Notes under the pieces: model-generated | What the model was told of the DNA's origin: nothing | Seen by the model: the letters and a program-made list of their open reading frames with translations, nothing else | Database searches by the model: none | Source: an uncultured Alphaproteobacteria bacterium | GTDB taxonomy: Bacteria; Pseudomonadota; Alphaproteobacteria; Rs-D84 | Assembly: GCA_944390835.1 (NCBI GenBank) | Contig: CALXQT010000023.1 | Span: 1-34,190, forward strand | Length of the DNA: 34,190 nt | Reading direction: 5' to 3' | In this document: positions 2,165-34,190 of the stretch, piece by piece | How positions within the stretch are numbered: the first letter of the stretch is position 1 | Layout: each line of letters opens with the position of its first letter | Translations under genes and position numbers: made by a program

Positions 2165-2212
2165 CTCTCTATACCGTACAAACGGTAATGTAACCCGAAA
2201 AACAGGTTACAT
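2165..2212 (-). promoter_or_regulatory. Tandem hairpins and ribosome site between two paralogs
   Basis: Two perfect inverted repeats fill the gap between the upstream cysteine-rich gene and its downstream paralog. The first has an 8-bp stem (2188-2195 with 2205-2212) and overlaps the upstream stop codon. The second has a 6-bp stem (2172-2177 with 2182-2187). The AGAGAGAGG ribosome site follows. No T-run is present, so an RNA processing, stability or coupling role is more likely than termination. Confidence 0.45.
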
Positions 2213-4363
2213 ATTTATATCCTCGCAACTTTCGATTTCTTGGCAGAATTCTTGTTCACCACCCGCACTACGTCCTGCAAAAAAGCCCCCAACAGCGCCG
2301 ACGACTGCACCTATCGCAGTCCCCCAACCTGGTGATACCATTGTACCAGCAGAGGCACCCGCTGCCAAACCACCTGCAGCACCTTGTACCCCGGCCGTAC
2401 CCTTTGATTGCCCCCCTGTCTCACAAACCTGTTGCATACGACACACGTGGCAGTTACGTAACGCTGGTTCAAATGAAACACTACGTATATAACTATAATT
2501 CTTACTTGACTTATCTGGTGTTTCTACCTGATATGTATTATAGCAATTCTCTTCTGCTTGTTCTAAATCTTGTTGACGAGACAACTCTGCAATTTTTGAT
2601 TCTAACTCACGCATAGCGCGGTTTTCAGCACTAATCTGTGCAATCATTTTAGCACTATTAAATACACTGTCCCCAAGACTATCTCTATCTGCAGGCTTTT
2701 GACTATCTTGACATGCAGCAACAGTCTTGTCTTGTTCAAACTGCTTAAAGAATTCGTCAACCGCCAGTTCCGTATTAGCCCGAACAGATTCACGCAAAGC
2801 CGCTAATTCTTCTTGAGTATCAGGAACGGAAACTAATGAAGTAATCTGCGTATCTGTTGTCAAACAAGACATGTCTGTTCCGCAAACATTCCCCAATTGT
2901 TCGCTGAAATAATTCAAGCACCCCTGCAACATCTGGTAATCCATCTGTAACATTGCAGCCTGTACAATTATATCAAACTGCGTTTCATTTTTACATGATG
3001 GAAACATACTCTGCGGACATAGTGCTGCTATTTCTTGAGCGCTTTTCCCGACACATTCTGGCGCTGTAAAGTTTGCACCACATTTATCTTGTAAACATTG
3101 ATCTACATCGTTCTGGCAAAATTGCGTACGAAGATAACCTAATTTATCATTAACAACAGACTTAATACCCGGGATCATTGCTTCACAATCATCAATGACA
3201 GGGCAAATACCAGCTGCAATTTTTATATCAGTTAAACACGCAGAATTTGTTTCTGTAGAACAACTATCTTCTAAACATAATTGAATTCGCGCCAAACATG
3301 TAGCACGTGAATTTCTATCGGCGTATTTTTCTGCCTCAGCTAAAATACTTACAGATTCCTCTTCCCAATCTTGTAATACATAATCTCTAACGGCCATACA
3401 TTGATCTAGAACATTTTCGCAAGCGTTTGCACGACGGGATAACAAATCTGCATCTAAACAATTTTCGAAGTTTACACCACAACCACCTTTATCCGCAATA
3501 CAAGAGCGATATGCCAACAAACATTCCCCTCGATTATATTTATTTGTCGTATCCAGCATTTCTAAACGAGCCTGACGAACTGCCGCTTCTGCTGTACGCT
3601 TATTAGATTCTGCAATAGACTTTTGATCTTTTAAATAAGATTCAAAGTTTTTACAATCTTGAACTATTTGTCGTGCATATAAGACCTCTTCCATTTCAGC
3701 ACTATTACCACAAGCAGCCAATTTATCTGCGCAATACTCAGCCGCCATAGCATACAAAGGGTCACCAATATCACTATCCATACCTAAACTTGCATTTGCA
3801 TCTGAATCGCTGTTTATCCAATCAGCAAAACTAATTCCGGATATTCGAGAACTTTTTTGTGCGGCCTCACTTTCACCAAACACCAGTTTAGCCTGCGCCC
3901 CCAATTGCTCTCTTTCTACCCCCTCTGTATAAAGCAAATCCGCTTCTTCTTGAATAGATTGAATTTCTTGTATCAAAGATTTTGATTGATTAATATTAGA
4001 AGAACATGCGCAACGACTGCCTTCTGATTCATCTAACAAACAAAATTCATCCATACAAGCACGATAAGCATCACGACAAGACGCACTTGTTGTGCTTCCG
4101 TTATTATTCTGCATATCATCTGGAACAGTATTTGTTCCACCATCATTATTATTAGAACCAGAACCGCCACCTGGGTTTATATTCAATGTGGGCATTGAAT
4201 TAGTCGCCCCAGAAGAACCCAAGTTCGCAGACATATTTACTGCTCGACTCCCTGCCTGCGACATACGATTAACACCAACACGTACAGTAGCATCATCGCG
4301 AGACGCCGCCATAGCAAAACTTGGTAAAAAACACAACAAACCTAAAAAGATTCTTAGTTTCAT
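2207..4363 (-). CDS. Cysteine-rich secreted repeat protein with C-terminal glycine zipper
   Basis: 718 aa, family not recognised. Signal peptide 1-20 (cleavage after AMA), then an Asn/Gly/Ser-rich linker to about residue 92. The N-terminal signature is C96-x6-C103-MDEF-C108-x9-C118-x-C120. C-x6-C units recur at residues 211-218, 281-288, 315-322, 356-363 and 416-423; the third extends to C281-x6-C288-x6-C295-G-x2-F-x2-C302. Spacers are predicted helical. Near the C-terminus is a CHVC-x4-QVC-like cluster (638-647), then a glycine-zipper hydrophobic segment (about 661-700) and a last Cys pair. The right-edge gene carries a matching CHKC-x4-QIC-like cluster. Start chosen at 4363 because AGGAAGGG precedes it. 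The gene is divergent from infA and is followed by its paralog at 1-2156. A disulfide-stabilised envelope protein is inferred. Confidence 0.88.
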   Translation of the reverse strand: MKLRIFLGLLCFLPSFAMAASRDDATVRVGVNRMSQAGSRAVNMSANLGSSGATNSMPTLNINPGGGSGSNNNDGGTNTVPDDMQNNNGSTTSASCRDAYRACMDEFCLLDESEGSRCACSSNINQSKSLIQEIQSIQEEADLLYTEGVEREQLGAQAKLVFGESEAAQKSSRISGISFADWINSDSDANASLGMDSDIGDPLYAMAAEYCADKLAACGNSAEMEEVLYARQIVQDCKNFESYLKDQKSIAESNKRTAEAAVRQARLEMLDTTNKYNRGECLLAYRSCIADKGGCGVNFENCLDADLLSRRANACENVLDQCMAVRDYVLQDWEEESVSILAEAEKYADRNSRATCLARIQLCLEDSCSTETNSACLTDIKIAAGICPVIDDCEAMIPGIKSVVNDKLGYLRTQFCQNDVDQCLQDKCGANFTAPECVGKSAQEIAALCPQSMFPSCKNETQFDIIVQAAMLQMDYQMLQGCLNYFSEQLGNVCGTDMSCLTTDTQITSLVSVPDTQEELAALRESVRANTELAVDEFFKQFEQDKTVAACQDSQKPADRDSLGDSVFNSAKMIAQISAENRAMRELESKIAELSRQQDLEQAEENCYNTYQVETPDKSSKNYSYIRSVSFEPALRNCHVCRMQQVCETGGQSKGTAGVQGAAGGLAAGASAGTMVSPGWGTAIGAVVGAVGGFFAGRSAGGEQEFCQEIESCEDINM

Positions 4364-8152: not shown

Positions 8153-10423
8153 CTAAAAATTATATTTAAATTTTATCGTGCCAGTTTGAGAAGTATAATC
8201 TGACCGCAGGTCTAAACCATAATTTACAGAGAACTCCCATTCATTATAAACTGCGGATAAACCTATACCAAACTCTCCCCCGAACAAAGAAAGTTTATCG
8301 CCAGAAATAACATATGGACTGCCACCAGGAATAGTAACTGTAGCAATCGCGTCATCAGAAATGAAATCATACGTTGCAGCTGCATAAATTTCTGGTTTTA
8401 TGTATAGCCGCCCTTCCGTTTCAATTGAAAAAGCATACCGCATTCCAACAACCCCCGTCATATAATTTGTATCTAAACCCTCAACATCTGCGAAACCGTT
8501 TTTATATTCATCTTGAGAAATATGTAAATATCGAACTCCTAACTCAGGTGTTAATCCATTAATAATATTATAACCGGTAATAATCTGCCCACCAAAAGTA
8601 TCTACATCATATTGTGGGTTAAAAATCATTCCAAAAGCTGTCATATTTTCTTCATAATTAGACATCGTATAATCTAACGTTGCCGCCACATACCATTTTG
8701 ATGGTTTATACTGAGCATACAGGAACATAGTATTACTATTAATATCTATTGCACGCGTGTCAGAATCTATATTCGCCTCATTTTTCATATACCCAATACC
8801 AAACGTATATTTTTTAGCGATCAGTGTATCCAAACCAACAGCAACTCCATTTATATCACCTGAAAAAATATCAGAATATTTTGTTCTATTCATCAAACCT
8901 TGTGCCCAAAAACCATATCCAATATTAATATCCCCCCCATTACGTCCAATGCTTCCGCCATTCATTCTGGAAGACGCCAAAGCAAATATCTGATTTTGAA
9001 TTGATACAGCCATAGATTGAGTGACAGGCGCTTCTTCATTTACAAGCTTTGACGATTCGTTTTCAAGATATTCTGTATTACCAGCTAATAATTCGGATTG
9101 TGCTGTTAAAGAAGCGATATTCATCGAATAATCAGAACTATTTGCTAAACCAACCATTACTAATGCGACCTCATATGACACACCTGCATCAGCAACAATT
9201 TCATCTACTGATTTTGTTTTAACAATTATATTCGTCCCTTCTATAGAAAGATTATATATCGATTCGTTATAATCAATATTATTAAGACTTAACGTCGTTC
9301 CAAAATCATATGTTCCAGTTGCACCCAGTGTTAAATCAAATTTTCCATTTTCCCCAACATTGATTGTACCTACATCAATTTTACCGAATGATTCCTCATT
9401 AACGATAGAGGCAGACAATGTTCCATCTAAATTTAATATTCCTTGCTGTAGTGTTGTTGCCCCGATACTTAATGTTGCCCCGTTATCAACATCTAATGTG
9501 CCTGTTCCTGATATTCCCCCACTAATCGTTGTTGTTCCATCTGCTATTATTATTGTTCCATCGTTATAAATATCGTTTGCACTTCCATCCGCAAAGTTAC
9601 TAGAAAAAGAATTTTTACCGTTAAAAGTAATTCTTGCAGTTTTATCATTAAAAATTGCCCCCCCTAAACTTCCGGCACGATTTCCAACAAAAGACGAATC
9701 GGAAATCGATTCGATTATACCAGCATTAGAAATTGCCCCGCCATTTTTTACGTCACCAGTCAAAGCATAATTACTATTAAAAGAAGAAGAACTAATTGTA
9801 CCTATACGACCAAATGTATCATTAAAAACTGCTCCACCATCACTTGCAGTATTACTTATAAAGGCTATAGTTCCAATATTATTTATCATCCCTTGATTAT
9901 TAATTGCCCCACCTTGACCTGTTCCCGCAGAATTTTCAATGAAAGAGGCCTTTGTTATGGTATTAATTACGCCGCCGCCCACACTATCAGTCGAATTAGA
10001 ATTAAAAATTACACCGCCAGAATTACTATGATTACGTTGAAATAACGCAAGAGAAATTTCATTAATGCGTCCTGTATCTGAGTTATAAATTGCACCGCCA
10101 TAACCAGCCGAATTTGCACCAAATACAGAATTCACTTTTGAGCTGACTACTGAAGTAATCCCTTCATTATAAATCACGCCCCCCATGTTTCCGATATTAT
10201 TTTTAAAGGCCGCCGGCCCCGTAACATTAAGAGTACCACTGACAGATACAACTGCGCCATTTAAGGACTCATCTTGATATTCCGTATAATCACCATCTGT
10301 TATATTATAGTTTTCCCCCGCTTTGACAATAATCTGCTCAGAGGCAAACGTAGAAAAAGGAAGAAATAACAAACAAAAAACAACATTTTTTAATAAATTA
10401 TCAGCCATACTATATAGGGACAT
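8153..10423 (-). CDS. Pmp-like autotransporter, beta-helix passenger and beta-barrel
   Basis: 756 aa, type V secretion protein. Signal peptide ends near FASTFA/S-type site at about residue 27. The passenger (about 60-290) repeats GGAI(Y/F)N or GGVI(Y/F)N alternating with F-x2-N motifs, the pattern of right-handed beta-helix proteins such as chlamydial polymorphic membrane proteins. A Thr/Gly-rich region follows (about 290-400), then a helical linker. The C-terminal barrel (about 490-756) has alternating aromatic strands and ends KFKYNF with the terminal Phe typical of outer-membrane barrels. Start 10423 is favoured by AAAAGGAGAAGG six bases upstream, over the internal ATG at 10408. A TATGAT box on the minus strand (10464-10469) may be its -10. 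Role as adhesin or surface antigen is inferred. Confidence 0.9.
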   Translation of the reverse strand: MSLYSMADNLLKNVVFCLLFLPFSTFASEQIIVKAGENYNITDGDYTEYQDESLNGAVVSVSGTLNVTGPAAFKNNIGNMGGVIYNEGITSVVSSKVNSVFGANSAGYGGAIYNSDTGRINEISLALFQRNHSNSGGVIFNSNSTDSVGGGVINTITKASFIENSAGTGQGGAINNQGMINNIGTIAFISNTASDGGAVFNDTFGRIGTISSSSFNSNYALTGDVKNGGAISNAGIIESISDSSFVGNRAGSLGGAIFNDKTARITFNGKNSFSSNFADGSANDIYNDGTIIIADGTTTISGGISGTGTLDVDNGATLSIGATTLQQGILNLDGTLSASIVNEESFGKIDVGTINVGENGKFDLTLGATGTYDFGTTLSLNNIDYNESIYNLSIEGTNIIVKTKSVDEIVADAGVSYEVALVMVGLANSSDYSMNIASLTAQSELLAGNTEYLENESSKLVNEEAPVTQSMAVSIQNQIFALASSRMNGGSIGRNGGDINIGYGFWAQGLMNRTKYSDIFSGDINGVAVGLDTLIAKKYTFGIGYMKNEANIDSDTRAIDINSNTMFLYAQYKPSKWYVAATLDYTMSNYEENMTAFGMIFNPQYDVDTFGGQIITGYNIINGLTPELGVRYLHISQDEYKNGFADVEGLDTNYMTGVVGMRYAFSIETEGRLYIKPEIYAAATYDFISDDAIATVTIPGGSPYVISGDKLSLFGGEFGIGLSAVYNEWEFSVNYGLDLRSDYTSQTGTIKFKYNF

Positions 10424-14116: not shown

Positions 14117-15205
14117 ATGGAAGGGAGAAAATTATTTTCTGCGCTGGCTATAATACTTAGCACACTTTGCGCAAACGGGGCTAATGCCTGTACAGGTATT
14201 ACCCTGAAATCTAAAGATAACGGTGTCGTTACAGCTCGCACAATTGAATGGGGCGAATCGGCGATGGAAAATTTGTACACAATTGTTCCACGCGGATACA
14301 TCCAGCAATCTATGTTACCAAACGGTGAAACTGGTGGTATGACGTTTTCAAGTATGTACGGATATGTTGGCCTAGCAGTTGTAGAACCTGGCTGGGTAGT
14401 TGACGGCATGAACGAGGCTGGATTATCTGCGGGATTATTTTATTTTCCAGGATACGGTCAATACCCGGAATATAATCCAGAATATAAATCAAATACAATA
14501 TCCGACTTCCAATTAGTATCTTGGATTTTATCTAGATTTTCAACTGTCGATCAGGTTAAAGCAGCAATAAAAAACATACGTGTAACCAGCATAGACCCGC
14601 GTGCCTCTACTGCCCATTGGCGAGTAACTGAACCATCTGGGAAACAAATAATAATTGAATTCGTTAACGGTAAAGCCAATGTATATGATAGTGAACTGGG
14701 GGTATTAACCAATTCCCCAGAATACCCATGGCAATTAAAAAATCTTAATAATTATGTAAACCTTGCTCCGGGTACCGCAGGCCCAATAACATTTGGCAAT
14801 ATAAAACTAGCCGCTTTTGGTGCCGGTTCTGGGTTACTTGGTCTGCCTGGGGACTTTACCCCACCGTCACGCTTTGTACGTGCATCTTTCTTGCAAACAT
14901 ATTCCATTGAACAAGAAACTTCTTACGATTCGGTTTTACAAGCTTTTCATATTCTAAATAATTTTGACGTGCCTTTGGGAACAGAATTTCCTGTTGGTAA
15001 AGCACCTGTTAATATGCCTTCTGCTACACAGTGGACAATCGCGACGGACACACATGACAGAATTGTATATTACCACACAATGTATAACCGTACATTACGT
15101 TCAATAGATTTGAATAAAATAGATTTTTCAACTATCTCATTTCAATCTTATCCTCTGGACGAAACAAAAACAGAAACGATTATTCCGGCACGAATAACCA
15201 TGTAA
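14117..15205 (+). CDS. Choloylglycine hydrolase / penicillin V acylase-type amidase (exported)
   Basis: 362 aa Ntn-hydrolase that cleaves linear amides: conjugated bile salts, penicillin V or N-acyl homoserine lactones, depending on the member. Signal peptide 1-24 ends GANA, and the next residue is Cys25, so removal by signal peptidase would itself expose the N-terminal nucleophile. Other active-site positions are visible: R41 in ARTIEWG, E44 where bile salt hydrolases have Asp, N199 in VLTNSPEYPW, and the SRFVR motif (252-255). The ARTxEWG form is typical, from memory, of Gram-negative penicillin V acylase-like members, most of them periplasmic. A perfect TTGACA (14062-14067) lies upstream, without a clean -10. 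No Shine-Dalgarno precedes ATG 14117. It stands alone after a terminator. Substrate cannot be told from sequence. Confidence 0.93.
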   Translation: MEGRKLFSALAIILSTLCANGANACTGITLKSKDNGVVTARTIEWGESAMENLYTIVPRGYIQQSMLPNGETGGMTFSSMYGYVGLAVVEPGWVVDGMNEAGLSAGLFYFPGYGQYPEYNPEYKSNTISDFQLVSWILSRFSTVDQVKAAIKNIRVTSIDPRASTAHWRVTEPSGKQIIIEFVNGKANVYDSELGVLTNSPEYPWQLKNLNNYVNLAPGTAGPITFGNIKLAAFGAGSGLLGLPGDFTPPSRFVRASFLQTYSIEQETSYDSVLQAFHILNNFDVPLGTEFPVGKAPVNMPSATQWTIATDTHDRIVYYHTMYNRTLRSIDLNKIDFSTISFQSYPLDETKTETIIPARITM

Positions 15206-19921: not shown

Positions 19922-22900
19922 TTAAATACCTAAACGATGGCTTAATTTCATCATAAATATAGATTCATTACCAAACTCATCTGTATTATTTGGGTTTACG
20001 CGATATATAAATCCAATTGCACCATCTGTAAACTCACCAAAATTATGACGATAAGAACCAGTAAAACGTACTTCTCTATTTTCAGGACGTAAGCTTACGC
20101 TTTCTATATGCATATTTGTAATGGCCAAATCATATTTACCGTCGCCAAGATCTACGATTTCATAGTCTGCATACGGATATTGTAATACTCCGCCGCTGAC
20201 AGTCAAAGGTTGTGCAACACTGAAACTGAAATTACCAGCATCAAGACCAAGTGCAAAAGCGTTTGAATCAATATCAGAAATACCAAGTATAAACTGCCCT
20301 TCTGCCTCTGTTGTTGTACGTGCAAAAGTAGAACGTAATTTCATTGTAAGTTTTTCTATAGGACTATAGCGGAATTCTGTATCAACATACATAGTTTTCC
20401 CGTTCCCCATATCTAACAAACCACCAGTTTGCGCCCCCAATAAAGTATTTGTCTCATAGGCCGCACCAACAGATGCAGAGAAACCAAATTTATCACCCTG
20501 CCAATTAACATCAGATTGTGCTCCCTGCATCATGCCTAAACGTGCCGGCAGATATTGCGAAGATACAGTCGGATCATTATCCAGCATGGTTTCATCTGTT
20601 ATAGCACCAGAATAAGCCCGTCCACCAAAAGACCAACGCCCCATATTATAAACTATATCCGATGTAATCGCATTTGAAGTTAACCCCAAGATCGGGTTAG
20701 ACATACCGTCAAATCTGGATGCACCGTCTGTAAAATGCCGTTGATAACCAGCCGCAAAATTCCAGTTACCTGAAGTATAATCTAATTTCATAGTATCTAA
20801 ACCATTTAAATTATCAACATATGGTTTTTCAGACAACGACATTGAGAAACCAAAATTTCCGAATTGTACACGATCTGGCGCATCGTTACGGGTTTTAAAC
20901 TCACCCAAAACATCACCCATATATAAGCCACGTTTACTTGACGCACCCAACGCAAATTCGTTTTTCCACACACGAGGCATAGACATTTCACCGTCTATAC
21001 TTTCCAATATATCATAAAACGGTGCACTGATAGTGGCTGTTGATGGACTAAATACAGAAGAAGCCCTGAACATTGTATTTGTTGCAGCCCGCCAATAAGC
21101 ATCACCATTGGAAGAAACAATATTATTGCCGTCATAAAAATAAATACTTTTTCCAGGAGTCATCGCACGTTCAAGATTTATCATGCCATAACCATAGACT
21201 TCTGCAAAAGCATCTAAATACGCCTGCCCTGTTAGTTGATCTGCATTATAGTCCAACGGCAAAGAATACATAGCTTTCAGATATGTAACTAGTGTATCTA
21301 CTGTAAATGCGGTACCAGAATCATTAGTTCCCAAGAACGGACCATCCGCAGTCAAAGCCATCAATGTAAAGATGTTATTGCTATTCATGTAAGGGAAAGC
21401 CCCTTTTAAAGAAGCAACCGCACCTGCAGCAGACGCCGTAGCCATTTCAGCCGTCGGACCAGCAGCCGAGAAACACCATGGATCAACACCATTTATACCA
21501 AGTCCAGCAATACCACACTTACGTGACATATACTGATTACCCTCGCTATCTTGCCACATAGATAAAAACAATGGTCCGTATGACGTTCCTGTACCATTAC
21601 CATAATCTTCAATACTATCTGCAGCACTGGTTCCTTTAGAATTCTGGACCGCTACTACTGTCATAAACATATGTTCTAGATTATTATCATATATAGCAGG
21701 TGCATAGTTCTCAAACGTTGCGCTTAAAACCTCTGTTGTTTTATTTTCACCAACACCATAAGCAAATTCCCCCGCAGGATTTACAATTATTGGTAATACC
21801 GACCCATTACTGTAACTGCCAAAAAGTTGATTTGCTAAAATTCCCTGGTCGTTATCACTATCGTTATCATAATAATGATTTATTACGCTTTGAAAACCTA
21901 AAGCCTCGTCATCAAAAGAAGATATAGCATTTTTTATTCCTTGTACATTTATATAAGATATATTTCTTGAATCTGGATTTAATGATGCGTTTGCTATAAC
22001 CGCCGACCCATTGGTTCGTGCTGTATATAACGCCTCATAATTTTTAACATCAGCTTCTTCCCATGTTTTTTGTGTATATATATTATTATCATTTATAACA
22101 TACACAGCATCAGGTTTATTACCACCAGTAGTATTAACATAATAATAACCATCTGTTCCCTGATAAATTGCTATATCAGAAACGTCATCGCAACTTTCCC
22201 CGGAACAAGTTCCTTTTAACAAATTACTTCCCGCTGCAATTTTAAACGTTGTATCACCGATTGTAATAGTTGGGTTTGTAACGCCAGCATCATCCAATGC
22301 AGAAGATATAGTATATGTTACACCGTTTAAGGTTATAGTATCCCCTGTATCGATAGCACCAGCAGTTCCCGCGACACCAGAATCTGTTAAAGTTCCAACG
22401 GAAGCACCATCTGTTGGATTTGTAACATCAACCCACTCACCGCCACCGCCTGTTCTATATATAGCAAGTTGACCGTTTGGCGCGAAACCATACATATCAC
22501 CTGTTGCACGTCCTCCGGCTTCCCAGCCACCGATAATTTTTGCTGGCGCAGTTTCCATTACTGTTGCAAAAGGGTTCATTGCTGTACCGCTACCCGAGAA
22601 GTCAAAACCAGCAATTTCTGTTCCAAAATTATTGCCCGAAGGACTATTAAAATTCGCATATTTATCCGAAGCATATGTATTAGATGTAGCAGAAGCAGAA
22701 TCAGACCACGTAATCCCTGTAGAAGTACGCGCTGCGGACCCTGTAGGGTTAATACCATTTGCAGTGATAATAGAAGTTAAAATTGGTTTTCCGCCACCTG
22801 TTGAATTTAAGACTTTGATCGGTGCATACGCATTATCTGCGTTACGAAAAGTAGTCTGCCCCATATACCCATTTGCGAAAGCGGAATACCCATGCATTAT

Positions 22901-23653
22901 CAATAAATAATTCTGCAATGGAACGCTTATCCCATCTACCGCATAATTATTCGTAGGTTGTTCCGTTGGTCGGAAATAATTAAAGTCCAAGGTACGTATA
23001 CTTGCAGTACCAGCATCACTAGTACTTGGATTCCACTGAGCTAAATTAGATTGATATAAACTTTGATATTCTGATGAGCTAGGATCTAAAACCCCATTAG
23101 AAGTTATATAAGCAGGTCCCACAGGTATTGTTAATTTTGCAGTAGCTGTACCATCACCAGAACCGCTTCCACCAGGATTTGTTGGTCTATCGCCACTGGA
23201 CGAACCACCGTTTTCATTTCCTGGATCTAACCAATCAGTCAATAAAAAAAGTCCACCTACAACAACGGCGGCACCCGCCGCCGCCAAAGAAATCGTATGG
23301 GCGGAGGATAATCCGCTGAACAGCCCCCCACTGCTCTGTGGCGTAGTTCGAGACTCATACTGCTTTATCTGTCTATCGCACTGAGATGCATCTGCACCAT
23401 ACATCTGCAAAATTTGTGCTGCACGAATATCATTATTCATCAGTGCAGTACATACCAAAGATAACCCTGTGCTATCGACATAATTTACATTTGCACCATT
23501 ATTTATCAAAGCTTGAACCTGTTGAATGTCAGCGTTTTTCGCCGCAGATAATAATTGCGCAGCAATCATAAATTCGCTATTTGTTGCCGTTGCCGCAAAC
23601 GAGCCAGCAGGAACTAAAAATAGTGCTAATAGTAATAATCTGATATATTTCAT
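19922..23653 (-). CDS. Autotransporter with ankyrin-like N-terminus and degenerate subtilase (S8) domain
   Basis: 1243 aa from ATG 23653, preferred because AGAGAGAA precedes it; an in-frame TTG two codons earlier lacks support. Signal peptide about 1-21. Ankyrin-like repeats at about 30-90 (VQALINNGANVNYVD, AAQILQMYGADAS). A strongly hydrophobic segment at 118-138, then a Gly/Ser linker. From about 170 to 830 it resembles autotransporter subtilases: GFAPNGQLAIYRT (for GVAPNAxL), WCFSAAGP and AAGAVASLKGAFP. The three catalytic sites look substituted: LLIMHGYS (H254 for Asp), NNFGTEIAG (F343 for His) and TAEMATASAAG (E736 for Ser). The C-terminal beta-barrel covers about 985-1243. A surface-exposed, probably non-proteolytic scaffold or adhesin is inferred. 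It is flanked by terminators and transcribed alone. Confidence 0.9.
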   Translation of the reverse strand: MKYIRLLLLALFLVPAGSFAATATNSEFMIAAQLLSAAKNADIQQVQALINNGANVNYVDSTGLSLVCTALMNNDIRAAQILQMYGADASQCDRQIKQYESRTTPQSSGGLFSGLSSAHTISLAAAGAAVVVGGLFLLTDWLDPGNENGGSSSGDRPTNPGGSGSGDGTATAKLTIPVGPAYITSNGVLDPSSSEYQSLYQSNLAQWNPSTSDAGTASIRTLDFNYFRPTEQPTNNYAVDGISVPLQNYLLIMHGYSAFANGYMGQTTFRNADNAYAPIKVLNSTGGGKPILTSIITANGINPTGSAARTSTGITWSDSASATSNTYASDKYANFNSPSGNNFGTEIAGFDFSGSGTAMNPFATVMETAPAKIIGGWEAGGRATGDMYGFAPNGQLAIYRTGGGGEWVDVTNPTDGASVGTLTDSGVAGTAGAIDTGDTITLNGVTYTISSALDDAGVTNPTITIGDTTFKIAAGSNLLKGTCSGESCDDVSDIAIYQGTDGYYYVNTTGGNKPDAVYVINDNNIYTQKTWEEADVKNYEALYTARTNGSAVIANASLNPDSRNISYINVQGIKNAISSFDDEALGFQSVINHYYDNDSDNDQGILANQLFGSYSNGSVLPIIVNPAGEFAYGVGENKTTEVLSATFENYAPAIYDNNLEHMFMTVVAVQNSKGTSAADSIEDYGNGTGTSYGPLFLSMWQDSEGNQYMSRKCGIAGLGINGVDPWCFSAAGPTAEMATASAAGAVASLKGAFPYMNSNNIFTLMALTADGPFLGTNDSGTAFTVDTLVTYLKAMYSLPLDYNADQLTGQAYLDAFAEVYGYGMINLERAMTPGKSIYFYDGNNIVSSNGDAYWRAATNTMFRASSVFSPSTATISAPFYDILESIDGEMSMPRVWKNEFALGASSKRGLYMGDVLGEFKTRNDAPDRVQFGNFGFSMSLSEKPYVDNLNGLDTMKLDYTSGNWNFAAGYQRHFTDGASRFDGMSNPILGLTSNAITSDIVYNMGRWSFGGRAYSGAITDETMLDNDPTVSSQYLPARLGMMQGAQSDVNWQGDKFGFSASVGAAYETNTLLGAQTGGLLDMGNGKTMYVDTEFRYSPIEKLTMKLRSTFARTTTEAEGQFILGISDIDSNAFALGLDAGNFSFSVAQPLTVSGGVLQYPYADYEIVDLGDGKYDLAITNMHIESVSLRPENREVRFTGSYRHNFGEFTDGAIGFIYRVNPNNTDEFGNESIFMMKLSHRLGI

Positions 23654-23722
23654 AAACAATTCTCTCTATGCAGAATATTTTAACATACTTCCAAATTATA
23701 TGTCTAGAAAAAACTTTCCATA

Positions 23723-24420: not shown

Positions 24421-24530
24421 TTTAAATCCCTTTACTTGGTTTTACACGTTTTAATGTAGGACAAAAACGCACTTTTGTCAAGTAGAAAGCGCAAAAAATC
24501 TTTTTTAAACGCTTGCGTGTATTTTCTCTT

Positions 24531-24558
24531 TGCAGACAAATTGTTTTTTGATATACTT
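24531..24558 (+). promoter_or_regulatory. Promoter of the three-gene cysteine-rich operon
   Basis: TTGCAG (24531-24536), 16-bp spacer, TATACT (24553-24558), just before GAAAGAGAGAA and the ATG at 24574. The leader would be only about 9 nt. Confidence 0.55.
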
Positions 24559-24573
24559 TTATGAAAGAGAGAA

Positions 24574-25446
24574 ATGAAAAAAAGTATCCTATTTTTTATA
24601 TGTGGCTTTATTGCCAGCCCTGGGATTTCTGCGGCTGCGACTTGTTCACAAATGAACTTAACGCGTTGCTTAGATTCTGTGTGTGCAATAAATATATCCT
24701 CTAACCCTGCGGCTCGTTGTCAATATTGCGGCACTGCCAGTGCGGGAACTCCAAAAACAAGTTCGGGTGGCATGCGCAGCTTATCACTTGGTCAGTCTAC
24801 AAAATATACTTTAACCGAAGACGAATTAGAAGACGCCCCAACCGATCCTGGGCAGCGATATATTTGGGCAACAGAGCAATGTATTGAAAAGGTTTCTGGT
24901 TGTACAGCAGATGATGTATCTGATGTTTACGATGAATTAATTGAACAATCTTGTCGTGCAGCCGGCATAACAGCACAAATGTCTGCAACGATTGCGAATG
25001 CGAACAAACAAACGGCAAGTGAGTCTGGATGCTTATCAACGATTCGTGCATGTATGGTTGAGGAAAAGCGTTGCGGTCCAGATTATAGCGCATGCGAGGA
25101 CGATACAAGTTTTAATAACTTTTTCTCATCCTGCAGTGTTGAAGCCACAGGTTGTGGTGATTATATTGCAAACATTCGTAGCAATTTAATTGCGTCACGT
25201 GATACGGCCATTAAAAATGCGGATATTTTGATTACCAGCATTGTAAGTGCTTATCAAAGTGCACGCGAGCAGAAATTATTATCTGCGCAAGAATCATGTA
25301 AAAATAATTCTGCCCGTGAAACATGTATAGAAACAATATGCCAAAGAAGCATGCCAAACAAATGTGCGGCGGGTTATGAATCAGAGCGTGCAACCGCGAC
25401 ACTATTCTGCAAGTTTTATGACACAGCCTGTGAGGTACTGGACTAA
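24574..25446 (+). CDS. Cysteine-rich secreted protein, first gene of operon
   Basis: 290 aa, the smallest complete member of the cysteine-repeat family. Signal peptide 1-22. An N-terminal cluster C24, C32, C37, C49, C52 looks like a loosened version of the signature in the larger paralogs. A C-x6-C pair lies at 103-110. The full block C153-x6-C160-x6-C167-G-x2-Y-x2-C174 matches those of the edge genes. A long helix (about 195-230) and a second Cys cluster follow to the end. There is no glycine zipper. The ribosome site is AGAGAGAA. The next gene begins 10 bp after the stop. A role in the same envelope assembly as its operon partners is inferred. Confidence 0.87.
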   Translation: MKKSILFFICGFIASPGISAAATCSQMNLTRCLDSVCAINISSNPAARCQYCGTASAGTPKTSSGGMRSLSLGQSTKYTLTEDELEDAPTDPGQRYIWATEQCIEKVSGCTADDVSDVYDELIEQSCRAAGITAQMSATIANANKQTASESGCLSTIRACMVEEKRCGPDYSACEDDTSFNNFFSSCSVEATGCGDYIANIRSNLIASRDTAIKNADILITSIVSAYQSAREQKLLSAQESCKNNSARETCIETICQRSMPNKCAAGYESERATATLFCKFYDTACEVLD

Positions 25447-25455
25447 GCGAATAAA

Positions 25456-26970
25456 ATGATAACGAAGCAAAATAATTTTTATGAATCTCGTAAACCTAAA
25501 ATAGCGTTATGCGCTATGCTGGTTGCTTTATTTGCTTTAGATGCAGGTGCGGCATCAGTTGTTTCTCGTGGGGGCACAACGTCTCGCCCGACTGTATCTT
25601 CTTCTACCCGTAGTACTGCTGCACGCATGCCAACGGCAACGACGAATATTTCTGCATTGGAAGAATCTTTATCCACGACAGAAGCGGAAGAGGAAACATC
25701 AGAACCAATCATTACAGAACCTGTTGCAGAAGATAAATCTTCTCAATTTGATGGGATATTATCGTCATCTGGTACATCTACTACGGACACATCTGCAGAT
25801 AATTTAGCCGAAATGATACGTCAGCAGCGAGCACAACTGGACGCACAAGATGCAATAGATACAGCCAACAAGGCCGTCCAATCTGGCAATAGTAATTCAT
25901 GCGATACGGGGCTGCGTAAATGTATGCAAGAGAAATGCGGTAATGACTTTACGAACTGCAGTGGGGATACGGATACTGCATGGGGTAACAAAATGGACTC
26001 ATGCCGCCGCGATTTAGATTGTACAGGTGAAGAATACAGGTTATTTGCATCTGAAATAAAATCAGATAGGGATATGAATGCTAGACTGGCGTCTTATAAC
26101 GCAGTAATAAATTGTGGAAATCAATATAATAATTGCATTATGACAGAATGCGGCGAAACATTCAGTAAATGTTTGGGAAAGACTGCTGGAGACGCAGCAA
26201 TTGCAAAATGTAAAACGATTGCGGATAACTGTAAAGAACAAGATAGCGGTCTTGCCAGTCGTGCAATGCAGGTATTCGCCAATTTACGTCAAGATGCTGA
26301 AGTACAAATTCAAAAAGACGAAGAGCGCTTATATGCCTTGCGCGATCAAATGTCGCAGCAATGCACGACATTGGGTGCGATGTTTGATGAACGTACATTC
26401 AGCTGTGTATTTACTGTAAATTTCTACGCCGGGGAAGATTCTACTTTATATGCGTCTAAGAAATTATATGCGGGTGACGTATTTGACTGTACGCCGAATT
26501 GGTTTGGTATAGACGTAACCACATTTATGGAAAATGCATATCGTTTGACACGGGAACAAACATCTGCATCATCTGCATTATTGGGTTCTGGTTTAGGTGT
26601 TGCAGCGGGTGCGATAACGTCTGGTGCCATAGATCGTGCCATAGATCGTCAAAAAGCCGAGAATGCGTTAAAAGACGCAAAAGACGAACACGAATCAACA
26701 TATTCGTCATCTAACACAGAGGAAAAATCAAAAGATAACGCTAAAGACACACAAAAAGACACAGAGGAAACAGCGACAACGGGTAAAGACCAAACAAATA
26801 ATAATAACCAAACAGAATCTACAAACGGAACGCAACAAGCAACAACAAAAGACTCAACAAAATCCGACTCAGAGCAAAAAGTTACAACACGCGTAGCAAA
26901 GGGTAGAACTCTTGAGGACGAAGCCAAGAAACAAAAACAACAAGAGAAAGAACAAGAGACCAAAGAATAG
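25456..26970 (+). CDS. Cysteine-rich secreted protein with glycine zipper and charged tail
   Basis: 504 aa, not a named family. Signal peptide about 1-32, then a Ser/Thr/Glu linker. Two near-identical Cys blocks: C149-x6-C156-x4-CG-x2-F-x2-x-C168 and C220-x6-C227-x4-CG-x2-F-x2-x-C239 (same spacing in both). A third pair is CKTIADNC (251-258). A helical stretch (265-300) leads to KLYAGDVFDCTPNWFGID (336-353), closely like KLAGDTFTCNRDLFGFS in the protein at 29612-31522. A glycine zipper (about 374-392) and a low-complexity Asp/Lys/Thr/Gln tail (400-504) end it. It is second in the operon, 10 bp after the previous stop and 15 bp before the OmpA gene, with no clear ribosome site, so coupling is likely. 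Confidence 0.87.
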   Translation: MITKQNNFYESRKPKIALCAMLVALFALDAGAASVVSRGGTTSRPTVSSSTRSTAARMPTATTNISALEESLSTTEAEEETSEPIITEPVAEDKSSQFDGILSSSGTSTTDTSADNLAEMIRQQRAQLDAQDAIDTANKAVQSGNSNSCDTGLRKCMQEKCGNDFTNCSGDTDTAWGNKMDSCRRDLDCTGEEYRLFASEIKSDRDMNARLASYNAVINCGNQYNNCIMTECGETFSKCLGKTAGDAAIAKCKTIADNCKEQDSGLASRAMQVFANLRQDAEVQIQKDEERLYALRDQMSQQCTTLGAMFDERTFSCVFTVNFYAGEDSTLYASKKLYAGDVFDCTPNWFGIDVTTFMENAYRLTREQTSASSALLGSGLGVAAGAITSGAIDRAIDRQKAENALKDAKDEHESTYSSSNTEEKSKDNAKDTQKDTEETATTGKDQTNNNNQTESTNGTQQATTKDSTKSDSEQKVTTRVAKGRTLEDEAKKQKQQEKEQETKE

Positions 26971-26985
26971 TCAAATAGTTTAAAC

Positions 26986-29361
26986 ATGAAAAAATATTTA
27001 ATAAGTATCTTCATAATACTTATTTTACCTACAATGGCAATGTCTGACACGCCAGGTGGATATGGTGGCGGTTCTTCTGGTGGCGGTGGCGCAGGAAGCA
27101 CTTTTGAAGTAGCACCACAAACAAAAGAAGATCAATCATCAACCATTACTGTTTCTGGAACTGTTAAAACTAATAAGTCAGAACCATTGGTTGGCGCAAA
27201 TGTTTATCCCAAAAGTAACCCAGCAAACGGGACCGCGAGTAACAAAGATGGAACATTCACAATAAAAAACGTTTCTACAGATGATAAAATTGTTGTATCT
27301 TTTACTGGGTACAAAGAACAAACATTATCCCCTTCTGAAAACATGACTATATCTTTAGAAGAGGATCCACAATTAATTGGAGAAGCCATTGTAGTAGCCT
27401 GTATTCCTGTCAGTCCCGCAAAATCTTCAGTATATGATATGGGGACACAAAAATGTTATCCAACTGCCTGTGAATCTAGCAGATATATTTTAACAAACAA
27501 ACGTCAAGTTAAAGTAACCACCTTAGGAACCCCTCATATTTGTACAAATGAAGAAAAATGTCAAAATTTCTGCAAAGAAAAAGATACGTGTAACACGATT
27601 GAAATAGGTGACTCATGCGAAGATCAGGTTAATAAAGAATGTAAACCTGAAGATGATCCCAACGCTAAAACAGCAGTGTATACATGGGAAAGTAGCCAAC
27701 TTATTTGTAAAACACAAGATTGTGTTGATGGATATGAACCAAAAGATGGCAAATGCACCGCAATTTCTGGTAATTGCGACTCTATGCCGCCAAAGGCAGT
27801 GTCTGCGCACCGATCTTGGGACTCAGAGGCTGGTAAAGAAGTATGTATTGTTGATAGTTGTGCAGACAAATATCGTCCAAATGACGATAAACAATCTTGC
27901 GTTTCAACATTATCAGAAGAAGACTCTGAAGCAAAAATAGCCGAGCTGCAAGAAAATGCCGATGCAATGAAAGAAAAAGAACAATCTACTGCAAATAAAC
28001 TGCTTGGTGCTGCAAGTATGGGATCTATGGGGATCGGAGGAATGCAGGTTGCTTCTGCTTTGGCAGAACAAAAAGCAGATAACGCAGCCGAACAAGATAT
28101 GACTGCATATCTAGCAACGTTTAAATGCGATTACGGTCAAGGCATGAATATTCAAGGTGGTGAATCTAATGTCGCACTGCCCGGTGCAAATGTGTTATTA
28201 CCCTTATATAACGAATATACAACATTGGCGGCGGATTTAAAAACACGTAAAGAAGCCTTGGGGATGACCCCTGGAATTGAATCAGAAGTAATATTAGATG
28301 CTGCGACATCTGGTTTATATGACAATGCAGCAACTGGAATAACAGATAGCGCATTTACATCACTATCTCGCGCACTAACAGATGAAAACAGTGACGACGC
28401 TGCAGAATGGGCAACACAAAGATCTGACACTGCCTCACAACTTAAAACTGGCGCAATTGTCGCTGGGGCTGGTGCGCTTGTTGGTATAGCTGGGAATCTT
28501 TTAATAAACGAAACAGGAAAAGATAAAGTAACAGAACGATCCGATGAAATCATTGCGAAATACGAACCTCTAAGAAACCTGAAAAGTAATGTGGACAAAC
28601 TACCTAACAATGACTCAAATGCAAAATGTCCTTCAGGTACCACTGGCACATATCCAGAATGTAAATGCAATGACAATAAATATGTTTATACCCTAGAAAA
28701 TAACTCTTGCACCATCTGCCCAGGGGATAAAGTCTCTATAAATAATATATGTGGTTGTGATAATGGAACATCACCAGGTCCTAATGATAGTTGTTCAATA
28801 TCAGTTGCACCTAAATGTAACACAAATTCAGAGCACGTAGAAGTTGATCCTGACACCGGAAATTGTTCATGTACAGATGGTTACCAACTGAATGATGACG
28901 AATTACCAACCTGTGAATGCCCCACAAACACCCATACATTAAATGAAAATGGTGACTGCGTAATAAAAAATACACAAACGCTTATAGAACAAGCAACAGA
29001 TCAAATAACACCTGCAATAGAATTACCAACAAATAAGCTTTTTAAATTAAACTCATTTAATTTAACTTCTGACGCAACTACAGCTCTGCAAAGTTTCGCA
29101 GCAGAGGTAAAAAGGGTTATGACAGACAATAATTATTGTATTTCTGTTACTGGCTATACAGATAAAAGTGGTACTGATACTACAAATATTACACTATCTA
29201 AGAACCGAGCGGATGCAGTAAAACAAGTTTTAGTATCCAATGGAGGAATAAATAGTAATAATATTAAGACACAAGGACTTGGTTCTCAGGGCTGCTCTAA
29301 AAAATATGATCCCAATTGTCGTAAAGTCGAAGTAAAAATGTCTTATACAGCCTGCCAATAA
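26986..29361 (+). CDS. OmpA-domain protein with SusC-like regulatory domain and glycine zippers
   Basis: 791 aa. Signal peptide 1-20 and a Gly-rich linker. Residues 52-137 form a carboxypeptidase-regulatory-like beta-sandwich (SGTV-x6-EPLVGANV, KDGTFTIKN, VVSFTGYKEQT, ending GEAIVVA), the type heading Bacteroidetes TonB-dependent SusC proteins. Then come Cys-rich modules (138-305), a charged coiled helix, a first glycine zipper (338-360), LYNEYTTLAADL (407-418), a second zipper (488-508) and more EGF-like Cys modules (548-660). The C-terminal OmpA domain (about 685-790) has D726 in GYTDKSG and R741 in N-x2-LSKNRA, the positions that bind peptidoglycan diaminopimelate. It is last in the operon, and the OmpA domain should tether it to the cell wall. 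The zipper-aromatic-zipper layout is shared with the gene at 29612. Confidence 0.92.
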   Translation: MKKYLISIFIILILPTMAMSDTPGGYGGGSSGGGGAGSTFEVAPQTKEDQSSTITVSGTVKTNKSEPLVGANVYPKSNPANGTASNKDGTFTIKNVSTDDKIVVSFTGYKEQTLSPSENMTISLEEDPQLIGEAIVVACIPVSPAKSSVYDMGTQKCYPTACESSRYILTNKRQVKVTTLGTPHICTNEEKCQNFCKEKDTCNTIEIGDSCEDQVNKECKPEDDPNAKTAVYTWESSQLICKTQDCVDGYEPKDGKCTAISGNCDSMPPKAVSAHRSWDSEAGKEVCIVDSCADKYRPNDDKQSCVSTLSEEDSEAKIAELQENADAMKEKEQSTANKLLGAASMGSMGIGGMQVASALAEQKADNAAEQDMTAYLATFKCDYGQGMNIQGGESNVALPGANVLLPLYNEYTTLAADLKTRKEALGMTPGIESEVILDAATSGLYDNAATGITDSAFTSLSRALTDENSDDAAEWATQRSDTASQLKTGAIVAGAGALVGIAGNLLINETGKDKVTERSDEIIAKYEPLRNLKSNVDKLPNNDSNAKCPSGTTGTYPECKCNDNKYVYTLENNSCTICPGDKVSINNICGCDNGTSPGPNDSCSISVAPKCNTNSEHVEVDPDTGNCSCTDGYQLNDDELPTCECPTNTHTLNENGDCVIKNTQTLIEQATDQITPAIELPTNKLFKLNSFNLTSDATTALQSFAAEVKRVMTDNNYCISVTGYTDKSGTDTTNITLSKNRADAVKQVLVSNGGINSNNIKTQGLGSQGCSKKYDPNCRKVEVKMSYTACQ

Positions 29362-31658: not shown

Positions 31659-32666
31659 ATGATAAACAAAATATTCGATTTTTTTAAAAAGTATAAATAT
31701 CCTATTATATGGACGGTCTGTTATGCTTTTATAGTTTGGGCGATATTATTTTTTCTATTTAAATTTGATATATTTGTACGACAAAATTGGATAATTCTTT
31801 CACATGCTCATTTACGCGGCTTCCCAGGTTTTGTTTTTGGAATATTAATTTTATCTGCGATACCAATATACATTGCAACAACGGCAGTAATAGTTCGTAC
31901 GAAACAGCCATTATTTACAATAAAATTACCAAAATTTTTGACACCTATCCCTGATGATACGCAATCCTTAGAAGAAACAAATGAAAAATCAGAAAAAGAG
32001 ATCACAGAGGATAAACCACAGGAACCACAACAACAACCAGAAAAAATAATTCCGACAGAATTACAGTTTGCATTTGCACGAGCACGCACACATATAGGCC
32101 CTGCTCCCAAAACAAATTTTGATATCAGCAACATTACATCCTCGCAATTTTCTGCTTCAAAAGAAACTACACCAGAATTGCAATCAGAAACCAGTTTCCC
32201 TTTACCTAATGATTTTGACATCGAAAAAGAAGAGATTCAAGCACCTTCTTTTTCACCGGTTTTCTCGGACATAAATTTTGATGAAGCTTCAGAAGCAGAT
32301 ACGCCCTCCCTAATAACAAACGAGGTAGAAACCGAGGTCACAGAAAATCAAGTCGTTACTGAATACCTTATAAAAAAAGCGATAAAATTTACGGTAGAAA
32401 AAGATCTAATATTCACAGAACATGATGTAATTGCTTCGCACACAGACCCAGATTTTTGGATAGCGGATAACGAGACATGGTTTGCAGCAGGCAGACATAA
32501 AGCCTCACCAATAGACGAACTTTTAGTTGAAAGCAAAAAACGTGGGTTACGTCCAGTATTATATTTAGGTTCAACTAACATTTTAGATATAGAAAGTCGT
32601 TGCAACCAATGGTCAGAGTCAGGAATTACAGTAATAAAAGATTTAGAAATTTTAAATATAAATTAA
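31659..32666 (+). CDS. Inner-membrane protein with unknown C-terminal cytoplasmic domain
   Basis: 335 aa from ATG 31659; an upstream in-frame TTG at 31641 lies inside the -10 region and is rejected. Two membrane segments (about residues 14-34 and 53-79) with a short loop, then a long acidic, Pro/Gln/Glu-rich linker (about 95-225). The C-terminal domain (about 235-335) is compact: DPDFWIADNETWFAAGRHKAS, VESKKRGLRPVLYLGSTNI, GITVIKDLEI. The alternating strands and helices hint at a Rossmann- or nuclease-like fold, but I cannot name it. The promoter leaves no room for a ribosome site. The stop codon overlaps that of the convergent cysteine-rich gene by two bases, with no terminator between. Confidence 0.82.
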   Translation: MINKIFDFFKKYKYPIIWTVCYAFIVWAILFFLFKFDIFVRQNWIILSHAHLRGFPGFVFGILILSAIPIYIATTAVIVRTKQPLFTIKLPKFLTPIPDDTQSLEETNEKSEKEITEDKPQEPQQQPEKIIPTELQFAFARARTHIGPAPKTNFDISNITSSQFSASKETTPELQSETSFPLPNDFDIEKEEIQAPSFSPVFSDINFDEASEADTPSLITNEVETEVTENQVVTEYLIKKAIKFTVEKDLIFTEHDVIASHTDPDFWIADNETWFAAGRHKASPIDELLVESKKRGLRPVLYLGSTNILDIESRCNQWSESGITVIKDLEILNIN

Positions 32667-34190
32667 AACTGAATATCTACACACTCTGGCTGACTGGGGC
32701 TCGCCCACGATTTACAAGACTTGCTCCCAAAAAAAGGCGTTTTTATAGAATCACAAATTTGTGTAGTAGTACATTTATGGCACACTAATGTGTCCATATT
32801 AAAATCTGTTGTTATAGTCTCTCTATAGTTCCATTGCTCATTTTCGAAACGCCCTGATAAGTCAACAGAAGCCTTTATAGACTGAGCTCCTTTATAATCT
32901 GCCGTTAACGCACCAACCGTACCGCCAACCAAGGCTGCAGACCCAACTGTTCCAGCAGTTGCCAACGCAGCCGTAACAGCCGTTCCTGTAATAGTTGGGG
33001 CCATAACAGTTGTTGTTATACTAACTCCTCCCACAACAACCGTTTTAGCAACAGGAACCAAAGATGCCGAAATTACGGTCCCGATGCCAGCAGTAAAAAT
33101 GGTTACAACTACTGCCGCCGCGACAATAAGAACAGCTGCAGTAATAATTCCTATAAGGGATTTTGGGGCTTCAGATTTAGCTAGGCCGGACATTTCTGGA
33201 ATATTTACACATGCTTGGCGAGCCATCTCACGACGAGCATCTTTACCATTTTCGTTTTTAGCCTCCGACATACGCTCCATAATTGTAACATAGTCTTGAG
33301 ATTGTTGTGTTAAAAGTTCGTCATATTTTTTATAATAATTTTGACGAGCTTTATTTACCGCTAACATAGATATTTTTTTTCTAATCTGTTTTGTTAACTC
33401 TGGAAAACGGGGTTCAGCCTGGCCTGAATAAGGCTTTATTCCATCTACTTTTCGTCCGGTCATACAAAATTGAACAGTAGGATCAGATTCAATCATATTA
33501 AATATATTTTTTATATTTGATTGTAAAACAGATAATTCAGACGAAACAAACTTTTTCGATGCTTCTGCTTCTTCAATAGAATCTATATTCTTAAAATATT
33601 CGTCAACTCCACAAATATTACCATCATCATCAATTGTTACGCCATCCCACCATATTGTTCCTTCTATAACACCAGTTAACGGAGAAACAATACCCAAAGA
33701 ATTAGAAGTCGCCCCAATTACTCTACCTAATTCCTCATCGGTAACTTGCGAAACATTACTCCTACAATTAGCATATCCAACCTGTTCTCCGTTTTCAAAA
33801 GAAATATAATCACAAATTTTATAATCCAAAGAACGCGTTCCTATTTCTTCATCATAAACAAATTTATTACATGTTTCCGTATCACCACATACTTTTATAA
33901 CTGCTTCATCCAATGCTGTTTGACAATAATCCAACATTTCATTATCTATACTTAAGAATATACCCTGTGCGATATTATAAATTTCATCATAAACTGCCTC
34001 ACTACGAATATCTGTTTCACCATATACTTGTTGACAACCAACTAAAGTATCATACGGACATAAACGTATAATCGTATCTGTGTCTAAACCAACACATTGG
34101 GTATAATCAGAGCCGCATCGGTCTTCTGACTGCAAACATTCTTTTATTTGCGTCGTACACGAATTTACTCTCATTGAAGCCAATCTTGCT
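32663..34190 (-). CDS. Cysteine-rich secreted repeat protein, 5' end cut by window edge
   Basis: About 509 codons visible and open through the right edge, so the true start lies outside; the in-frame TTG at 34183 is internal. The visible part begins ARLASMRVNSC, matching AAMRVDAC in the left-edge gene. It continues with C-x6-C-x6-CG-x2-Y-x2-C, LCPYDTLVGC (LCPIDSLVVC there), IESDP-x3-QFC and RFPEL. These are clear paralogs. After a helical stretch come hydrophobic Gly/Ala/Val-rich segments (about residues 342-435 of the visible part). A CHKC-x4-QIC-like cluster, matching CHVC-x4-QVC in the protein at 2207-4363, precedes the end. The left-edge protein is cut before this region, so the full architecture may be the same. 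An envelope location is inferred. Confidence 0.86.
   Translation of the reverse strand, partial: ARLASMRVNSCTTQIKECLQSEDRCGSDYTQCVGLDTDTIIRLCPYDTLVGCQQVYGETDIRSEAVYDEIYNIAQGIFLSIDNEMLDYCQTALDEAVIKVCGDTETCNKFVYDEEIGTRSLDYKICDYISFENGEQVGYANCRSNVSQVTDEELGRVIGATSNSLGIVSPLTGVIEGTIWWDGVTIDDDGNICGVDEYFKNIDSIEEAEASKKFVSSELSVLQSNIKNIFNMIESDPTVQFCMTGRKVDGIKPYSGQAEPRFPELTKQIRKKISMLAVNKARQNYYKKYDELLTQQSQDYVTIMERMSEAKNENGKDARREMARQACVNIPEMSGLAKSEAPKSLIGIITAAVLIVAAAVVVTIFTAGIGTVISASLVPVAKTVVVGGVSITTTVMAPTITGTAVTAALATAGTVGSAALVGGTVGALTADYKGAQSIKASVDLSGRFENEQWNYRETITTDFNMDTLVCHKCTTTQICDSIKTPFFGSKSCKSWASPSQPECVDIQF

Follow-up and report, generated by a model that had tools for sequence, protein, structure and literature searches.

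A conserved operon encoding cysteine-repeat proteins and an OmpA-domain protein in Candidatus Enterousia and its relatives of the order Rs-D84

Members of the order Rs-D84 are uncultured and have genomes near 0.9 Mb, yet they keep a Cys-rich family of predicted secreted proteins for which we found no description. What might this family do in a lineage, including Enterousia, that has reduced genomes and no standard uptake systems and may rely on partner cells (PMC12306168)? We analyzed a 34,190-nucleotide stretch of DNA (hereafter, the window) from the 816 kb assembly of a Candidatus Enterousia genome, in which two such proteins are encoded directly ahead of a protein with an OmpA domain. Related contigs belong to uncultured Alphaproteobacteria of the gut, among them Candidatus Enterousia excrementavium.

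Operon layout, upstream region and conservation of the gene pair

The three ORFs (G1, G2 and G3) are arranged head to tail and preceded by two candidate regulatory elements.

24460–24479, no strand assigned: perfect inverted repeat GACAAAA-N6-TTTTGTC in the divergent intergenic region, candidate operator
24529–24557, + strand: promoter-like TTTGCA-17-TATACT, from a consensus scan and conservation in seven species
24574–25446, + strand: G1, predicted secreted Cys-rich protein of 290 aa with 20 mature Cys
25456–26970, + strand: G2, predicted secreted protein of 504 aa with 15 mature Cys (an odd number), comprising a helical Cys core, a Gly-zipper and a variable charged tail
26986–29361, + strand: G3, predicted secreted OmpA-domain protein of 791 aa, from the ORF and a domain match

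By inspection, all three proteins start with a Sec-type signal peptide, and no lipobox was seen in any of them. An earlier note on this DNA had described a three-gene operon under a single promoter, with gaps of 10 and 15 bp, encoding a small Cys-repeat protein, a zipper protein and an OmpA protein of increasing size. The operon, the three protein types and their size order were borne out, with Pfam family PF00691 found on G3, and so was the gap of 15 bp between G2 and G3, whereas the gap between G1 and G2 proved to be 9 bp. The promoter also gained support: although the scan by itself was not significant (18 sites vs 17.1 expected), the TTTGCA-17-TATACT sequence and a GAGAG ribosome site before the ATG are kept in seven species in which the surrounding sequence has diverged. 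The inverted repeat has no second copy in the 816 kb genome (0 were expected in the window), and many relatives carry it ahead of G1 as well, making it a candidate for a dedicated operator of the operon. A -35-like TTGACA that belongs to the opposite-strand gene overlaps the right arm of the repeat.

Comparison of close relatives gave pS values of 0.61–0.76, near saturation, against pN values of 0.11–0.32, which places all three genes under purifying selection, with G3 the least constrained. An initial search of the genus found G1 and G2 adjacent in 35/35 genomes, and the same held for each of the 81 operons assembled later in which both genes were readable, a set spanning several genera, sister genera included, and a second family. 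Together with the contrast between pS and pN, this adjacency shows that the operon is more than a chance arrangement. The G2 profile matched 131 of the 142 Rs-D84 genomes, several other families of the order being matched weakly. No G1 was detected outside the genus among 398 genomes of the phylum (two positive, both of the same genus). A 24199-aa open frame beside G2 in genome G107 was rejected as an artefact: five of the six frames there are open at the same time, a pattern expected from masked bases.

Other genes in the window encode a choloylglycine hydrolase family protein (14117–15205; PF02275, E 2.2e-65), which in a gut symbiont may be a bile-salt hydrolase or an amidase of the penicillin-V type, and an autotransporter with the chlamydial Pmp-type repeat (8153–10423; PF02415). 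Conserved beside the operon is a gene (19922–23659) for a secreted protein of 1245 aa that has weakly matching ankyrin repeats and on reading alone looks like a subtilase-like autotransporter lacking the usual catalytic Ser.

Cysteine-repeat cores of G1 and G2

G1 contains one unit of six Cys and G2 two, the latter followed by a glycine zipper.

25030–25155, + strand: G1 six-Cys unit, aa 153–194; C2 and C5 lost together in one lineage
25900–26022, + strand: G2 six-Cys unit 1, aa 149–189
26113–26232, + strand: G2 six-Cys unit 2, aa 220–259; C1 and C6 lost together in two lineages
26575–26631, + strand: G2 glycine-zipper segment, aa 374–392, mean hydropathy 1.54

The Cys of G1 are invariant in 64 orthologues (two of the 20 in 63), and all 15 of G2 in 63 orthologues with identities down to 19%. 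In a wider set, Cys losses in both proteins come solely in pairs: 160 + 187 in L155, 242 + 251 in L138 and 256 + 264 in L134 for G1, and 220 + 259 in L165 and L166 for G2. An apparent further pair in L167 was a misalignment. All six Cys are present in 253 of 256 full-length units; C1 and C6 are missing from two units, and C2 and C5 from one. AlphaFold modelled the G2 Cys core as confident helices (pLDDT >90). The paired losses and the predicted helices together suggest that the cores of G1 and G2 are antiparallel helical hairpins with putative nested disulfides, C1–C6 and C2–C5. The bonds predicted on this basis are C160–C187, C242–C251 and C256–C264 in G1 and C220–C259 in G2, to which analogy adds C149–C189, C156–C183 and C227–C252 in G2.

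Such a hairpin would resemble the twin CX9C (CHCH) proteins, which reside in the mitochondrial intermembrane space, in its antiparallel helix-loop-helix, its two predicted nested disulfides and its oxidising compartment; in TRIAP1, the inner bond is Cys18–Cys37 and the outer Cys8–Cys47 (PMC12114033). G1 and G2 differ in their CX6C spacing, in a third Cys pair in the turn, and in being bacterial and apparently Sec-exported. Secreted bacterial alpha-hairpins with disulfides also occur as the cysteine-rich (Sel1-like repeat) proteins of Helicobacter, which G1 and G2 would resemble in these respects while having a different Cys spacing and a predicted nested topology. Searches of G1 and G2 against Pfam returned no CHCH, Sel1 or chlamydial OmcA/OmcB family at E<=1, and G1 had no match at all in Pfam or NCBIfam. 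Profiles of both proteins against the PDB gave a single match, huntingtin, on the variable tail of G2, which was taken as low complexity. Foldseek and VIA-align searches with the G2 model returned nothing above the helical-bundle background, a weak or absent match being no proof of a new fold. No six-Cys unit was found outside Rs-D84 among 289 alphaproteobacterial genomes (four positive, all Rs-D84). The six-Cys repeat was found in Rs-D84 alone and has neither a sequence match nor a convincing match by fold. Further proteins with the unit lie at 1–2156, 2207–4363 and 32663–34189 of the window and on contigs C14, C21 and C50 of G000; the genome holds 13 matches, nine of them within the window.

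The odd Cys count of the conserved G2 core means that one Cys is either free or bonded to another chain. A specific bond between it and the lone Cys in the G3 central module was not supported, since lineages that have no G3 keep the odd Cys too. The same persistence speaks against a Chlamydia-like outer envelope, in which the Cys would form a covalent network between chains more than fold single ones. In its favor, the invariant odd count in G2 and the one Cys in the G3 module lead one to expect at least one intermolecular bond or free thiol, and small and large Cys-rich envelope proteins are likewise encoded by adjacent genes in omcA-omcB (PMC6812762), again in a reduced-genome bacterium. We nevertheless regard it as very unlikely, because the Cys losses are paired within a single chain, as expected for intrachain bonds, because no chlamydial family was matched in Pfam, and because wall synthesis genes are kept in Rs-D84 (PMC12306168). 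The operon also departs from OmcA-OmcB in its OmpA anchor and in the lack of detected homology. Folding of single G1 and G2 chains, the reading that we prefer, would take place in the periplasm through the cell's own DsbA-like enzyme; a DsbA-fold protein was found in 54/59 genomes.

In the GxxxGxxxG zipper segment of G2, G377 and G381 are invariant and G379 and G385 nearly so. Through this helix, G2 probably contacts a membrane.

G3 architecture and the wall anchor across relatives

G3 comprises, in order, a SusC-type N-terminal domain, a Gly-rich module, a Cys-rich linker and the OmpA domain.

27151–27384, + strand: SusC/RagA-type N-terminal extension (CarbopepD_reg_2), followed by a TonB-box-like stretch (PF13715, TIGR04056, Foldseek 9hfj)
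27898–28545, + strand: central module, aa 305–520, containing a pair of hydrophobic, Gly-rich segments and a single invariant Cys (C381)
29038–29307, + strand: OmpA domain that keeps both DAP-pocket residues, Asp and Arg, from profile and fold matches and residue spacing

The N-terminus matched PF13715 (E 3.6e-13), TIGR04056 (2.6e-19) and the fold of 9hfj. G3 is not recognizable as a SusC/RagA transporter, as the barrel was without a match and TIGR04056 was covered at the first 86 of its 981 positions alone. No TonB_C was found in the genus or the order sample, so the domain probably serves another purpose; its Bacteroidota type, together with the lack of detectable TonB in the order, suggests a domain acquired by gene transfer and then reused. 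Among 289 alphaproteobacterial genomes, the central module was found in three, all of the same genus. It recurs without G1–G2 in other ORFs of about 1300–2400 aa (L139–L142) and is thus not dedicated to G1–G2. Some matches to the module break off exactly where a contig ends, which is what repeats would produce.

The OmpA domain scored 57.9 bits with PF00691 (E 1.3e-15; cut-off 27.2) and matched peptidoglycan-binding domains by fold. Its GYTD...LSKNR sequence places Asp and Arg at the same 15-residue spacing as in the DAP pocket, whose residues we take to be D271 and R286 of A. baumannii OmpA, and both are kept in 36/41 operon OmpA domains. Since Rs-D84 encode RodA, MreB and MrdA (PMC12306168), a cell wall exists, which G3, judged from these residues, should grip via its OmpA domain. 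DAP-binding residues are shared with OmpA, Pal and YiaD, and a glycine zipper in the same protein with YiaD. The operon proteins differ from these in lacking a lipobox and in joining OmpA to Cys-hairpin or Cys-rich modules and a SusC-type N-terminal domain; G3 reached 66.1 bits against a cut-off of 175 with the YiaD-type lipoprotein model NF053611.

The earlier note had suggested that the Cys proteins assemble on a wall-anchored partner and that co-occurrence of the genes in relatives would bear on this. G1 and G2 were never found apart; G3 follows them in most operons but not in all. An OmpA domain was present in 40 of 64 informative operons, on G3 in 37 and fused to G2 in three. It was absent from the other 24, of which 15 have no G3 within 2.2 kb and eight have a G3 without OmpA; the last, L099, had been among 38 automatic G3 calls, and its OmpA match proved spurious on reading. 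The anchor is therefore usual, not obligatory, and the suggestion is supported in part. In its favor, L155, L156 and L157, from sister genera without G3, carry an OmpA domain, above the Pfam cut-off, at the C-terminus of G2, tying Cys-repeat protein and wall anchor into one polypeptide. These fusions are the best support for Cys proteins sitting on a wall anchor. A C-xn-CR signature occurs in 34/41 operon OmpA domains, including the fused ones of L155 and L156, and in 0/9 other OmpA domains of these bacteria; a tree of OmpA domains neither supported nor refuted a single clade of fused and G3 domains (p-AU 0.174).

On the G1–G2 tree, anchor state changes at least 15 times among four states, indicating a labile anchor. 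This turnover of G3 and OmpA while G1–G2 stay, and the module in unrelated large ORFs, would suit an arrangement in which G1–G2 form their own envelope structure, G3 is a separate wall-anchored protein merely co-transcribed, and the fusions are independent anchor gains. We consider this unlikely, as G3 lies directly behind G2 in most lineages despite near-saturating synonymous divergence, and OmpA is fused to G2 exactly where G3 is missing.

A proposed envelope scaffold

We propose that G1 and G2, with their disulfide-stapled hairpin cores, form a secreted pair that would usually be tethered to peptidoglycan by an OmpA domain, located on co-transcribed G3 or on the end of G2 in sister genera. 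This would give the lineage, with its reduced genomes, an envelope scaffold of its own that is anchored to the wall, a reading that we hold to be somewhat probable. The more specific version, in which nested CX6C hairpins represent a new fold family that reached a CHCH-like topology independently and form a partly covalently cross-linked, wall-anchored Rs-D84 scaffold whose anchor alternates between a separate gene and a fused domain, is tentative and on present evidence rather doubtful.

The operon could instead encode a surface adhesin or partner-contact structure with which this presumed symbiont draws nutrients from other cells, with the Cys-rich stalk and SusC-type domain of G3 facing outward. 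The tails of G2 and G3 are variable, Cys-rich and lineage-specific, with EGF- or TNFR-like matches in some genomes, as such a role might entail, and a lineage without standard uptake systems may depend on partner cells (PMC12306168). A variable adhesin, however, would not show the strong constraint seen on the G1–G2 core; the presence of an OmpA domain implies that some portion, at least, stays in the periplasm; and nothing in the operon was recognized as a known adhesin or secretion component. An adhesin is thus quite unlikely in our estimation.

For the wall-tethered scaffold that we favor, the paired Cys losses supply a specific disulfide map for testing, and the link to a peptidoglycan anchor offers a testable handle on the function of a Cys-rich family that Rs-D84 keep in their small genomes.
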